NCBI GenBank assembly: GCA_030427935.1
Contig: JAUICI010000005.1
Span: 1-59,586, forward strand
DNA: 59,586 nt
Direction of reading: 5' to 3'
Origin: Bacteroidia bacterium
GTDB lineage: Bacteria; Bacteroidota; Bacteroidia; Flavobacteriales_D; Crocinitomicaceae
Each line of letters begins with the position of its first letter. Position 1 is the stretch's first letter. The position numbers were made by a program, and so were the translations under genes. The notes under the pieces are model-generated. The model saw nothing but the letters and a program-made list of their open reading frames with translations. It did not search any database and was not told the origin of the DNA. Below are positions 6,622 to 34,956 of the stretch, piece after piece.

Positions 6622-6650
6622 GGATATAGCTATAAATATCCTTATTTTTT
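6622..6650 (+). terminator. Possible weak terminator after the LytS/LytTR pair
   Basis: GGATAT at 6622-6627 can pair with ATATCC at 6636-6641 across an 8-base loop. A T-rich run follows (6642-6650). The stem is short and AT-rich, so it may be a weak terminator or an operator for the downstream kinase. Confidence 0.3.
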
Positions 6651-6671
6651 CCTTCGATTAATTTTTTAACC

Positions 6672-8105
6672 GTGTCAAAAGAGGATATCGAAAAGCTAAA
6701 AAAGCAAATTGCTCAGCTTAAGGAAGAAAATAAAAGGCTGCGTGAAGGGCATACTAGTTTTGTTACTTATGGTCCAACGGTGAATGTTCCTGAAGAATTT
6801 AGGCCACCTTTCGATAAGGCAGAAGAACTGGTTCGAAAATATTTTCAAAGTATTATTGCACGACCTTCGGAAGGAAATATAGAAATCGAAGGTGAGCGAT
6901 ACGTTCTCCTCAGAGCCAGCTCATTATCAGTCGATTTTTTCAATAAAATTAAAGATTTATATAGCGATAAAGGGGAGACGAAATCCTATACAATAGGAAG
7001 AAATTTTCTTTTTGATATATCGCATGTTCTTGGAATTGAAGATGCTAAAAATTTCCATAAAAAATTAAATCTTAAAGATCCCATCGAAAAACTTTCTGCG
7101 GGACCCATTCATTTTGCTTACACTGGATGGGCATTTGTAGATATAGACCCTAGCTCTAACCCTTCAGCGGATGAAAATTTTTACATGAAATATGATCATC
7201 CATTTTCATTTGAAGCGGACTCTTGGATCCAGGAAAATAAAAAAGCAGAATTTCCTGTTTGCGTTATGAATGCAGGCTATTCCTCTGGTTGGTGTGAAGA
7301 ATCATTCGGTATTCCATTAACTGCGGTTGAAATATCCTGCAGAGCGAAAGGAGATGATGCTTGTACCTTTATCATGGCGCCTCCGGAAAAGATTAAAGAT
7401 TATTTACCTCCTATTGATGAAAAATTGAAAGAGGCGGAATATGAAATCCCAGCCTTTTTTGAAAGAAAGAAAACAGAAGAACAATTAAAGGCGTCCGTCG
7501 AAGAGAAGGAAGTGCTTTTGAAGGAAGTCCATCATCGGGTGAAGAACAATCTACAGGTGATTTCAAGTTTATTAAACCTTCAATCCTATTTCATCACGGA
7601 CGAGAAAACCAAGAATATTTTTAGAGATACTAAAAATCGTATCAAGACTTTGGCATTGGTGCATGAACGCTTATTTAATTCTCAGGACATTGAATATGTG
7701 AACCTCAGTGAATACATCAAATCCATCGTTGATCTTTTAAGTTTCTCCTACGATAAGGAATATATCGAAATCGAATACAATTTCGACCCCGAAATCACTG
7801 GAAAATTTAGCATTGAAAAAGCCATCCCCGTAGGCTTATTGGTAAATGAAGTGGTTTCAAATTCTTTCAAATATGCCTTTCCAAACATTTCAAGCGGAAA
7901 AATAACTTGTAGTATTCTGAAAGTAAATGACGGAAAGGAATTGATCATTAATGATGATGGAATCGGCTTACCTGAAGATTTAGTTATCGGAGAAACAAAC
8001 TCCTTGGGAATGGAATTAATTCAATCGCTTTCCTCCCAAATGGAAGGCGAACTGGAAATCGACCGAGAAAAAGAAAAAGGAGTCGAATACCGCATAAAGT
8101 TCTGA
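6672..8105 (+). CDS. V4R-domain HisKA_2 sensor histidine kinase
   Basis: A soluble 477-residue kinase with a GTG start at 6672; no in-frame ATG lies nearby. A short coiled coil (residues 1-25) precedes an approximately 240-residue sensor part related to the XylR N-terminal/V4R (4-vinyl reductase) domain. The closing V4R signature is clear: 'AVEISCRAKGDDACTFIMAPPE' has the E-x-x-C-x-A-x-GD-x-x-C-x-F pattern (its first few residues are shared by the family). V4R domains bind small hydrophobic ligands or serve as input domains. A coiled linker leads to 'LLKEVHHRVKNNLQVISSL', the HisKA_2 dimerisation box with the phospho-acceptor around His287, then an HATPase with 'NEVVSNSFKYAFP' and 'DDGIGLP'. 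There is no membrane segment. No response regulator follows, so its partner lies elsewhere or is the upstream LytTR protein (less likely). Confidence 0.88.
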   Translation: MSKEDIEKLKKQIAQLKEENKRLREGHTSFVTYGPTVNVPEEFRPPFDKAEELVRKYFQSIIARPSEGNIEIEGERYVLLRASSLSVDFFNKIKDLYSDKGETKSYTIGRNFLFDISHVLGIEDAKNFHKKLNLKDPIEKLSAGPIHFAYTGWAFVDIDPSSNPSADENFYMKYDHPFSFEADSWIQENKKAEFPVCVMNAGYSSGWCEESFGIPLTAVEISCRAKGDDACTFIMAPPEKIKDYLPPIDEKLKEAEYEIPAFFERKKTEEQLKASVEEKEVLLKEVHHRVKNNLQVISSLLNLQSYFITDEKTKNIFRDTKNRIKTLALVHERLFNSQDIEYVNLSEYIKSIVDLLSFSYDKEYIEIEYNFDPEITGKFSIEKAIPVGLLVNEVVSNSFKYAFPNISSGKITCSILKVNDGKELIINDDGIGLPEDLVIGETNSLGMELIQSLSSQMEGELEIDREKEKGVEYRIKF

Positions 8106-8140: not shown

Positions 8141-8233
8141 CCTTCGCCTAAGGCTATGGCCGTCGGAGAAAGCTACATTGAATAACCAAACCCCTCCCCC
8201 ATCTTTCATTCGCCGTAGCTTCAGCGAAGGAGA
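8141..8233. repeat. Pair of inverted copies of a short dispersed repeat
   Basis: Copy A (8141-8166, forward) begins CCTTCGCCTAAGGCTATGG. Copy B (8209-8233, on the minus strand) reads CTCCTTCGCTGAAGCTACGG. The two face each other and could form an imperfect hairpin. A third relative, CTCCTTCGCTAAAGCTTCGG, is part of the ssrA terminator near 34526. The gap 8106-8352 shows no gene. Confidence 0.55.
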
Positions 8234-25532: not shown

Positions 25533-26138
25533 ATGAGACTTTTAGTGATTGCTATTTTTAGTTTCTGCTCTACTTTTCTGATTGCAGACTCCCCAATTAC
25601 AAGTACAGGATTTGGAGAAGCCTATGCCGATGTACCCATGGTAAAAAAGGCAATAGATTCGGATGGTGAACTAACAGACGAATATTGCAACTTCATCTTT
25701 GACAAAAAAAATGATTTTGGAGCTCGAATAGCCGTGGTAAGTGCTCTTGGTTGGAAATTTGATGGGAAAACCAATTTCGATTTTGCTTTAGAATACTTAA
25801 TTCGAATGAAAAAAGTTAAAAAGTCGAATTATTTGAAAAAATTAAGTGGCGAAGACCTTATTTGTCTCGCCTATCTAAAAGCACTCGATAATTATTTTAA
25901 GGTTGATGAAGCCCTTCAAATTGCCGAAGCCGGAAAAAAGAAAGCGAAAAGTTCCTATACGGCTCATATCATTCACGCACTAATTGCAGCACAGGCTAAT
26001 TTTGATAAAAACTGGTGCGACTGCTGGAAATTTTGTGACAATGTTAGACAATCCAAAAGTTTAAATGAAGATTTAAATTCGAAAGCACAAAAGATCATTT
26101 TTGATTATATGGATCTTTACAAGGAATACTGCAAATAA
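25533..26138 (+). CDS. Exported protein of unknown function
   Basis: A 201-residue protein with a signal peptide ('LVIAIFSFCSTFLIADS'). The rest is mainly helical and recalls a tandem-helix (TPR- or Sel1-like) arrangement, with 'ALEYLIRMKKVKKSNYL' and 'LKALDNYFKVDEALQIAEAG'. A cluster 'NWCDCWKFCDN' has three cysteines in six residues, which could form a disulfide or bind a metal. I do not recognise a family. It sits 3 bp upstream of the broken TPR-PP2C-LuxR gene and is very likely co-transcribed with it, so it may be a periplasmic partner (inference). Confidence 0.7.
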   Translation: MRLLVIAIFSFCSTFLIADSPITSTGFGEAYADVPMVKKAIDSDGELTDEYCNFIFDKKNDFGARIAVVSALGWKFDGKTNFDFALEYLIRMKKVKKSNYLKKLSGEDLICLAYLKALDNYFKVDEALQIAEAGKKKAKSSYTAHIIHALIAAQANFDKNWCDCWKFCDNVRQSKSLNEDLNSKAQKIIFDYMDLYKEYCK

Positions 26139-26141
26139 TTT

Positions 26142-28793
26142 ATGATTCGTACACTTGTTCTTTTTCTATTCTTAATTGCTTTAGGCGCCCAATTAAAAGC
26201 CCAAAACAAGAACTATTTCTTGATTGATAAAGAAGTAGATACTACGGAGATGCATGAAAGAGACCTGAAATACCTCAGAGAAGGCTTGGATCTCTTTCAA
26301 AAAGAAAAAGACCCACTCAAGAAGATCAAAGCACTTTCTGAAATGCTTGACCAACTTTACGATGAACGTTACTGGGTAGAATATGCAGATTATTTGTTCG
26401 ACTATGTTGAAAAAGAATTCAAGTCAGAACAAGACCCTAAAAGGAAAAAAGAACTGAAAAAATATTATGCCTTCTCTTACCTCAACAAGGGTTACTATAC
26501 AGACATTATTGGCAATTACAAAGATTCAAGAAAGCTTTACCGTATTTGTCTGAAGATGTTTACCGAACTAAATGACGAAGAGAACGTTGCAACAAGCTTA
26601 AACAATATCGGTTTTACCTTCAAGGAGGAAGGAAATTTGGATTCTGCACTATTCTACTTCAAAGAAAGCATCAAATGGAATGTTGAAAATGAAGAAGAAC
26701 ATTCCGTTCATTTCAATAATATCGGATATATCTATGACCTAAAAGGCGACATCATTTCAGCCTATGAATACTATGATAAAGCAAGAAAAATTCAGGAAAA
26801 AGATCCTGGAAGATAAAACTATCTAACCACGTCATTAACCAATTTGGCCGTCATCCTTGCAACCTTAGGAGACACGGCTACTTGTTTACAATATTACGAT
26901 CGAGCCATTGAGATTAATAAAGAGTTAGGAGACAATTTAGAATTAACGAGAAATTACCTCAATAAATCTATCGTTCTGCAAAATTCAGGACGTTATAATG
27001 AGGCAAAAAGTCTGAATCTTAAAGCTCTAAAACTGAGTAAAAGCACTGGTAGTTACTTAGATCATGGTGAAGCCGCAATTGAATACGCATGTTTACTTCA
27101 CAAAACTGGACATACAGATAGCTGTTATTTTTATTTGAATACGGTTTTGCTCGATACCGCTTTTCAAGGATATAAACCAATATTGAAAGATGCCTACACC
27201 CAAATCGCAGTTTGTCTTTTGGAAGAAAAGAAATTAAACCAAGCTTTCGATTATGCCCAAAAAGCTTACGACATGAGTAAAGAAGCTGAGGACAAAGAGG
27301 ATGAATCCACTGCAAGTAAAATCCTATATAAAATCTATCTTCAAAGAGGAAATTACCAAAAAGCATTGAAATTTTATCGGCATCACAAGGAACTCATGGA
27401 GCAGATTCAAAACATGAGTAACCAAAAAGAAATCCTTACTCGTGAATATCAAAAACTACTTCTTTTACAAAAAGAAAAAGACAGTTTAAATGCAAGTTTA
27501 GCCGAAGAACAATCCAAAAAAGAACTTTTGGAGAAAGACTTGGAGATCACAAAGTCGAGAAACCAAATTTTCTATCTCTCAGGAGCAGGAATTTTTGCCT
27601 TAATCGTCATATTTCTTCTTTATCGAAACAACAAACAAAAACAAAAAGACAAGGAAGTAATATTGTCTCAGAAAGAAGAAATAACGGTTGAAAGAGATAA
27701 AGCCAACGAAAACTACCTTATTGCAGAGGAAAAAAAGATTCAACTTCAAGAGAGAAATAAAGAAATTTTGGATTCTATTAAATACGCCAAAAGACTTCAA
27801 GAGGCGGTTCTTCCTCCTCAAAAATTAGTAAAAGAGTGGCTTACCAATAGTTTCATCATTTATAAACCAAAGGAAATCGTTTCGGGAGATTTTTACTGGA
27901 TGGAAACCACAACGATTAAAGACAGCGACAAATCTACCAATATCACATTCTTCGCCGCAGCCGATTGTACGGGACATGGAGTTCCTGGAGCCATGGTCAG
28001 CGTCATCTGCGCAGGAGCCTTAAATAGAGCGGTAAATGAATACAAACTATCCGACGTAGGAGAAATTCTCAATAAGGTTTCTGAAATTGTTGTAGAAAGC
28101 TTTAAACAAAGTGGAGAACGGGTTGCTGACGGCATGGATATCGCCCTTTGTGGATTAGACATTGGTCGTAAAAAACTCTTTTTCACGGGTGCCAATAATC
28201 CTTTGTGGGTGATTACTTCTGAAAACAAATTAAATACGGAAAGTACTTATAAATCTTTCAATCTTGAAGACCATCCAAATCGCTTTTTGCATGAAATAAA
28301 AGGAACCAAACAACATATTGGTCTCAATGATAATCAAAAAGAATTTCAAACAAGCGAAGTGCAATTGCAACCTGGAGATGGAATATTTGTATTCTCCGAC
28401 GGTCTGGCTGATCAATTTGGTGGAAGTCGAGGAAAGAAATTTAAATACCAGCAATTTCGAGAGATTCTGATTGAAAACTTCGACCAAAACATGGATCAAC
28501 TTAGAGATATCATCAATGAAAAATTTGAATCATGGAAAGGCGACATGGAACAAGTGGATGATATTTGCGTGATTGGTGTAAAAATAAATGGAAAAGAAAG
28601 AAACAATTTCACAAAAAGAGAAATCGAAGTTTTGGAGTATTTGCTTGAAGGACTCCCATCAAAATTGATTGCCGACAAGATGCATATTAGCGTCCACACC
28701 GTTGATACATACAGGAGAAGGCTACTAGCAAAAACCAACACCTACAATACCACTGAGCTCATCAACTATTGTAAAAGAAAAGAAATCGTATAA
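26142..28793 (+). pseudogene. TPR-membrane-PP2C-LuxR protein interrupted by one in-frame stop
   Basis: A single reading frame of 884 codons with one internal TAA at 26814-26816. The part before (224 codons) and after (about 659 codons) keep the same frame and both belong to one TPR domain: 'ISAYEYYDKARKIQEKDPGR', stop, 'NYLTTSLTNLAVILATLGD'. Order: signal peptide, about ten TPRs (residues 25-430), coiled coil, membrane span ('IFYLSGAGIFALIVIFLLY'), coiled coil, SpoIIE-type PP2C domain with intact 'SGDFYWME', 'AAADCTGHGVPGAM' and 'FSDGLADQFGG', then a LuxR-type HTH ('FTKREIEVLEYLLEGLPSK ... ISVHTVDTYRRRLLAK'). A single base change from AAA, CAA or GAA would give the stop. It may be a pseudogene, a read-through product or a sequencing error. 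Confidence 0.85.
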
Positions 28794-28864: not shown

Positions 28865-29331
28865 ATGAGAACGCTTATTGCAATTATTGTACTGGGTATC
28901 ACCTTTCAAGCTTTTGGACAATCACCCTATCAAAAAAAGATTCGTACTTTATTTACAAAAGTCCATTATTCAAAAGATTTCAATACGGAATTATGGGAAC
29001 TTACAAAGTCAACTAAAATTGACAACCCAACCGTTTATGCATACAAATGCTTGTACTATATCATGAACGCTAAATATGTTTTTTGGGCGCATAATAAAAT
29101 GGAAACTTCAAAACTGGAAGAAGCAAATTAGACAAAGCCATTGAAAAATATCCTGGAAATGCCGATTTACGTTTGGTGCGCTATGCCGTGCAGAAAAACG
29201 CTCCGAAATTCCTCAAATACTACAAAAACATTGAAGAAGATAAGCAAGTATTATTGGATTACAGAAAGCAAAATGCCTCAGATCCTGATTTGAATGGATT
29301 AATAGACGGAGTACTTGCCAAATTCCCTTAA
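28865..29331 (+). pseudogene. Small exported protein with a one-base frameshift
   Basis: The ATG at 28865 opens a signal peptide ('LIAIIVLGITFQAFGQ'). The frame ends early in 'KLEEAN' (stop 29129-29131). A second frame continues directly with 'LDKAIEKYPGNADLRLVRY' and runs to a stop at 29329-29331. The join sits where GCAAATTAGAC would read through if one T were added. The combined product of about 155 residues resembles a common Bacteroidota family of small exported proteins in which 'DKAI..YP.N..LR..R......P.FL.Y...I..DK' is conserved (from memory, no accession claimed). It is either a real 1-bp deletion or an assembly indel. It follows the stop-interrupted gene by 71 bp. Confidence 0.7.
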
Positions 29332-29332
29332 G

Positions 29333-29980
29333 ATGCACACCCTGAGTAAAAGATTCACATTTCCAACATACAGCTTAATCGCTCTTGGAATTATTCTGAT
29401 TCTGCACATTGTGGGCTTATATCAGATAATTGTCAATAAGCGCATAGAGCTTATGGAAGCATCCCATATCATTATTCTGATTAGTTCAGTTTTATGTTTG
29501 ATTCCTGAGTTTCTAAAATCCAACAAAATTGCATTTCCTTATAGTGCCGTCTTCTTAATCGGGTTAACCGCCGAAATGGTTGGCGTGAATACAGGCTGGT
29601 TATTTGGTGACTATGTTTACAGTGATTCTCTAGGACTTAAATTGATTCATACTCCAGTAATCATAGGTTTATTATGGTTATCCCTGAGTATTGGAATTCA
29701 GTCCATTTTAAAAATGACGCCCTTGAAAAAATGGCCAATCATTATTTTGGGCGCCTTGTTTATGATGCTATTCGATGTTTTACTTGAACCAGTAGCCATA
29801 CATTTCAACCTTTGGACATGGGACGGTCCACATGTTCCCATTTACAATTATATCTGCTGGTTCGTTTTTGCCTTCATTATGCAAATCATTTTATTCAACT
29901 CGACAGACTCGAAGAGTTTGTTTCGCTATTTGTTTATCGTGAATCTGCTCTTTTTTGCCGGACTTACATTGTCTATCTGA
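29333..29980 (+). CDS. CruF/DUF422-type carotenoid biosynthesis membrane protein
   Basis: A 215-residue multi-pass membrane protein with six or seven spans. I choose the ATG at 29333, one base after the stop of the frameshifted gene. The family signature is clear: 'AEMVGVNTGWLFGDYVYSD' (in part), 'LGLKLIHTPVIIGLLWL', then 'FDVLLEPVAIHFNLWTW' and 'VPIYNYICWFVFAF'. Members are 1',2'-hydratases acting on acyclic carotenoid ends (CruF, bacterioruberin-type) or related carotenoid synthesis proteins. The exact reaction cannot be read from sequence. The CarH-like regulator follows after 39 bp on the same strand, which supports light-controlled pigment synthesis. Confidence 0.82.
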   Translation: MHTLSKRFTFPTYSLIALGIILILHIVGLYQIIVNKRIELMEASHIIILISSVLCLIPEFLKSNKIAFPYSAVFLIGLTAEMVGVNTGWLFGDYVYSDSLGLKLIHTPVIIGLLWLSLSIGIQSILKMTPLKKWPIIILGALFMMLFDVLLEPVAIHFNLWTWDGPHVPIYNYICWFVFAFIMQIILFNSTDSKSLFRYLFIVNLLFFAGLTLSI

Positions 29981-34516: not shown

Positions 34517-34550
34517 AAAAAAGCCCTCCTTCGCTAAAGCTTCGGAGGGC
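34517..34550 (-). terminator. Rho-independent terminator of ssrA
   Basis: On the minus strand GCCCTCC and GGAGGGC (34523-34550) form the outer stem, with a smaller GC/TTTA/GC hairpin inside, followed by six T residues. The hairpin is also a copy of the dispersed repeat seen at 8141-8233. Confidence 0.85.
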
Positions 34551-34555
34551 GTAGG

Positions 34556-34956
34556 TGGAGCTGGAGGGGATCGAACCCTCGTCCAAACGACGATCCATTA
34601 AGCTTTCTACATGTTTATTTTGCGATTAGTTTTCGATTAGAGCACGGACACAAACACCCAAACCCTAACTTAGCTTCTAAAAGTTTCGCCTTTCAACCGA
34701 AGCCATATCCAGACTAGTTTGATGAAATGAAACTCCAAAATCCGGCACTATCAAACAAAGTAGCCGGGGGAGTTACTTGTCCCTCCTACTGTACTTCAGA
34801 GTGGATTAAGCCTTATTCTCTTAGAGAATTAGGCAGCAAGTGCGTAATTATAATCGTTGTCGACTATAGTTTGAGACATATGTTTTAAGAGCCACACCTC
34901 AACGCTCTACATGCTTACTTAACAAACGCTATCGCAGTCAAATCCAAGTCAGCCCC
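34556..34956 (-). ncRNA. ssrA: Transfer-messenger RNA (tmRNA)
   Basis: A 401-nt one-piece tmRNA. The 5' end GGGGCUGACUUGGAUUUGAC pairs with the 3' CAGCUCC through seven pairs. The discriminator A is followed by CC-U in the genome, so CCA is completed after transcription. The T-loop GGUUCGAUCC is present near the 3' end. The tag frame begins after the UAGUC element, at base 34861: codons GAC AAC GAU UAU AAU UAC encode DNDYNY, then ALAA and a UAA stop (34829-34831). The tag is DNDYNYALAA, preceded by the charged alanine. It is the rescue RNA that frees ribosomes stalled on broken messages and marks the product for degradation. Confidence 0.97.

Follow-up and report, generated by a model that had tools for sequence, protein, structure and literature searches.

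The window, that is, the whole analysed stretch of 59,586 nucleotides from an environmental Bacteroidota bacterium, holds on its forward strand a frame of 884 codons (883 and a terminal TAA; 26142-28793) that is broken once, by an in-frame TAA at 26814-26816. The part 5' to the break (26142-26816) starts with ATG and encodes 224 amino acids: a putative signal peptide (hydropathy: residues 1-20 are hydrophobic) followed by the first tetratricopeptide (TPR) units identified by Pfam. The part 3' to it (26817-28793) encodes, according to the ORF list, Pfam and hydropathy, the rest of the TPR units, a single membrane helix (around codons 474-495, numbered from the ATG at 26142), a SpoIIE/PP2C-type phosphatase domain (PF07228, E 1e-17), and a LuxR-type helix-turn-helix (HTH; GerE, PF00196, E 6e-15). 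The mechanical ORF list begins its second entry not at the stop but at the first possible restart codon, TTG at 26844 (26844-28793, 649 aa); the first ATG past the stop is at 27273. Upstream lies an intact gene (25533-26138, forward strand, 201 aa) that matches no Pfam family and is syntenic in the one congeneric genome available for comparison. Directly downstream is a second broken gene, at about 28866-29331 on the same strand, also without a Pfam family and not mentioned in the earlier reading of this DNA: its first ~80 and last 75 residues lie in different frames, owing to a one-base indel in a short A run around 29100-29112, relative to a frame of 159 codons in the congener. Beyond it is an intact gene of the carotenoid biosynthesis protein family (29333-29980, forward strand; PF04240).

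The sequence-only reading had described a single TAA in an otherwise open frame whose two halves constitute one TPR array and one gene. Both propositions hold: the TAA is the sole internal stop, TPR matches lie on either side of it, and the congener's orthologue, at 66% identity, covers both halves in a single open frame of 882 codons, which rules out a chance join of two ORFs. (The congener, G001, is the only genome of the same genus that was compared; the locus, L031, is on its contig C11, record JAGQYP010000010, Crocinitomicaceae bacterium HKST-UBA68. Gene order around the locus is common to the two genomes over tens of kilobases.) Thus 26142-28793 is the two halves of one gene, with the TPR array, the membrane helix and the SpoIIE and GerE HTH domains all in one frame that runs across the stop here and is uninterrupted in the orthologues. 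An AlphaFold2 model of the read-through protein, built on a four-sequence alignment and of low overall confidence (mean pLDDT 65.5), is confident in the TPR region, where TPR-like helices continue across the stop position; the stop falls 4 residues into a helix (222-242), in a stretch with pLDDT of about 82-93.

Opposite the TAA, the congener has a sense codon, AAA (Lys). Comparing this codon in relatives had been proposed as a check, and the outcome fits the single-base change that had been suggested (AAA, CAA or GAA to TAA). L029, L030 and L032, which are more distantly related and likewise end in SpoIIE-GerE, are each a single frame, with residues and no stop at this position. No split version of the gene is found among these four relatives, and the refuting case named earlier, relatives with the halves as separate genes, is borne out in none of them; the split is therefore a derived state, seen in this genome alone among those compared. 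Queried with the N-terminal half, 240 genomes of the family give a match at E 1e-25 in only two cases, the window's genome and the congener. A second intact copy of the interrupted gene was not found in the window's genome.

What kind of protein has been interrupted? The phosphatase domain matches a solved putative serine phosphatase (6k4e, E 1e-27) and also, with E 6e-42, the C-terminal 260 positions of the SiaA model (NF038263). Identity as SiaA is nonetheless rejected: the score is 144 against a cut-off of 700, and the protein has instead a TPR sensor and a C-terminal LuxR-type HTH. A highly conserved HTH of this type, carried by the same membrane protein as the phosphatase, marks a Bacteroidota SpoIIE subfamily (L029, L030, L032, L033 and L034; 28608-28790 in the window) in which the sensors ahead of SpoIIE and HTH are either TPR or propeller. 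The L034 protein, for example, which is related to a 1280-aa paralogue in the window's genome, has Reg_prop, Y_Y_Y, SpoIIE and GerE domains. Our search of the literature found no paper on a Bacteroidetes SpoIIE phosphatase that combines tetratricopeptide and LuxR-type HTH domains.

Readthrough had been put forward as one option. The TAA would then be decoded, by a suppressor tRNA or thanks to its context, to yield a regulated amount of the full-length sensor. The intact, in-register downstream frame speaks for such a mechanism. The stop is, however, not conserved at this position in relatives (a sense codon in the congener, residues in the more distant proteins). In the window, TAA ends 21 of the 41 clear ORFs, more than any other normal stop; an alternative code with TAA reassigned is rejected for that reason. 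A suppressor tRNA is likewise rejected: Rfam finds 42 tRNA matches in the genome, and no UUA, CUA or UCA anticodon occurs among the tRNAs decoded by ARAGORN (two degenerate matches were left undecoded). Taken together, the use of TAA as the usual terminator, the lack of a UAA-reading tRNA among those decoded and the unconserved site make recoding unlikely, and we regard readthrough as very improbable.

(A note on the small RNAs and repeats of this genome: the two undecoded matches belong to an array on G000:C286, 33787-40196, that comprises 11 or more tRNA genes along with degenerate tRNA-like matches, and isoacceptors of them occur at other loci of the genome too. Within the window itself, Rfam matches a single feature, a tmRNA gene on the reverse strand at 34553-34956 (RF00023, E 5.7e-60). 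A dispersed short palindromic element with the core CTCCTTCGCTRAAGCTTCGG is present in 11 copies in this genome and in none in the congener; listed copies are at 34526-34545 (forward) and 8213-8232 (reverse) of the window, and at G000:C133:32781-32800 (reverse). One copy lies in frame inside the 1280-aa SpoIIE-GerE paralogue, where it encodes SFAEASAGR.)

Might the two halves instead have become two functional genes, a secreted TPR protein and a separately translated 3' part, started at TTG 26844 or ATG 27273, that keeps phosphatase and DNA-binding activity? The open 3' frame with its start-like codons, and the good conservation of its catalytic and HTH regions, speak for this idea. On the other hand, the gene is split in no relative, the products of restart would have no signal peptide, and the first possible start falls inside a TPR unit. 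Moreover, the openness of the 3' frame is accounted for by the recency of the break alone. We consider it very improbable that two working genes are present.

How recent is the break? The 883 codons contain no further stop or frameshift beyond the TAA at 26814, even though synonymous sites are saturated against the congener, and it is the frame's freedom from a second lesion that makes the break, if real, very young. A simple simulation with uniform random mutation of the frame puts a scale on this. With 0.01 neutral changes per site, the frame gains a mean of 1.4 stops, and 25% of runs stay free of new ones; with 0.02 the mean is 2.8, and 5% stay free; with 0.05 the mean is 7.3, and 0 of 200 runs escape. 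By this simple measure, the break dates back at most about 0.02 neutral changes per site.

Because the synonymous sites are saturated between the two genomes (pS 0.83; range 0.82-0.86), no dN/dS ratio is given for the interrupted gene. Nonsynonymous divergence (pN) is 0.29 for the N-terminal part, 0.31 for the remaining TPR part and 0.13 for the part comprising membrane helix, phosphatase and HTH, and the constraint that these figures record accumulated before the stop arose. Continuing selection on the downstream half, which had been raised as a possibility, gains no positive support: the constraint predates the stop, and the break is too young for anything that came after it to be measured. 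Relative-rate counts at sites where the outgroups L029 and L030 agree are balanced between this lineage and the congener in the two TPR parts (4 vs 4 and 3 vs 4), with no acceleration; in the output part the raw counts are 15 on this lineage vs 7 on the congener's. There is no firm independent sign of relaxed selection.

The main rival to a real mutation is an error of assembly or consensus: the gene would be intact in the organism, and the TAA and the neighbouring frameshift would both have been miscalled in a locally weak draft. The genome is a draft of 289 contigs; the two lesions are about 2.3 kb apart, as would be expected of a weak stretch of consensus; the neighbour's indel sits in a short A run; and the frame at 26142-28793 shows no other sign of decay. 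The open frames of 0.76 Mb of this genome were surveyed against those of 1.18 Mb from the congener, which gave about 310 orthologue-like pairs with about 122,000 aligned residues in all. This survey bears on the matter in two ways. It yields one real internal stop in this genome, the TAA at 26814, and across about 365 kb of aligned coding sequence a substitution error rate as low as about 6e-5 would be enough to produce a single nonsense change (by an arithmetic that assumes that ~1 in 20 random substitutions creates a stop). Conversely, the rest of the assembly looks clean in it: there is no other real internal stop, and the frameshift in the gene at 28866-29331 is joined by only one other, at about 6676 of G000:C133. 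The genes flanking the two broken ones (25533-26138 and 29333-29980) are also intact. On balance, we judge a consensus error to be a serious but rather unlikely explanation. (A further technical note on this survey: inspection by eye removed the other internal-stop flags, which fell ahead of start codons or in antisense frames; a frameshift flag on C268 was dropped as lying upstream of the likely start codon. The candidate on G000:C133, at about 6640-6735, is close to the 3' end of a gene that reads as a single frame in the congener, and lies at a run of G and A; both accepted frameshifts of this genome sit at short homopolymers.)

If broken genes were placed at random, the chance that one of the other two would lie directly beside the interrupted gene is about 1% (2 x 2 / 309, a post hoc calculation). 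Two adjacent broken genes mildly favour real decay; a locally poor consensus would look alike, since clustering of lesions is predicted both by decay of a shared unit and by a bad stretch of sequence.

We infer, with somewhat better than even confidence, that the locus carries an ordinary recent nonsense allele or pseudogene, created by the change of a lysine codon to TAA at 26814. The option of a recent pseudogene in the sequence-only reading is strengthened by the derived stop, the intact congener and the freedom from further lesions, while the base error that had been named beside it retains the lesser likelihood just given. Such alleles are well known: bacterial pseudogenes with a single nonsense change and in-frame stop polymorphisms have been surveyed (e.g., PMC7918605, PMC10580986). 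The present case resembles them in having one derived in-frame stop in a gene that is otherwise intact, with a sense codon in relatives and, at its young age, no further decay. It differs in being known from one assembly, so that it would fail the filter of one of these surveys (PMC7918605), which required a stop to be common to two or more genomes, and in having a broken gene next to it.

The consequences can be sketched from the anatomy of the protein. In the intact relatives, an exported TPR domain probably controls a cytoplasmic PP2C-type phosphatase and DNA-binding domain across the one membrane helix. If the organism itself carries the nonsense mutation in this membrane-bound sensor phosphatase gene, translation would end at codon 225 and an exported TPR fragment of 224 residues would be the only normal product; full-length protein would presumably be absent, and the membrane-anchored phosphatase-HTH output lost or nearly lost. 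Restart at TTG 26844 or ATG 27273 would generate a protein with no signal peptide and a truncated TPR array. Loss of function would be the simplest outcome, and the young loss-of-function allele could be either fixed or a strain polymorphism caught in the consensus. The adjacent broken gene at 28866-29331 may belong to the same dispensable unit. One can also imagine the stop as a natural switch allele, with some strains carrying one codon and some the other, and with low-level readthrough or restart maintaining a reduced or unregulated phosphatase-HTH output; we think this highly improbable.

Loss of this sensor may be tolerable because the genome retains the 1280-aa paralogue intact, a protein that differs in its propeller-like front part and shares the SpoIIE and HTH output; dozens of other SpoIIE-domain matches are present in the same genome. 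The interruption truly exists in the assembled sequence and is of a well-known kind; most likely, the feature at 26142-28793 is not a new kind of genetic element. A lone stop in a draft assembly is a reminder that such stops call for reads. If real, this one would add one more recently lost sensor among the dozens of related SpoIIE phosphatases of this genome. The greater biological interest lies with the intact subfamily, in which one and the same membrane protein combines a TPR sensor with a phosphatase and a DNA-binding domain of the LuxR type.
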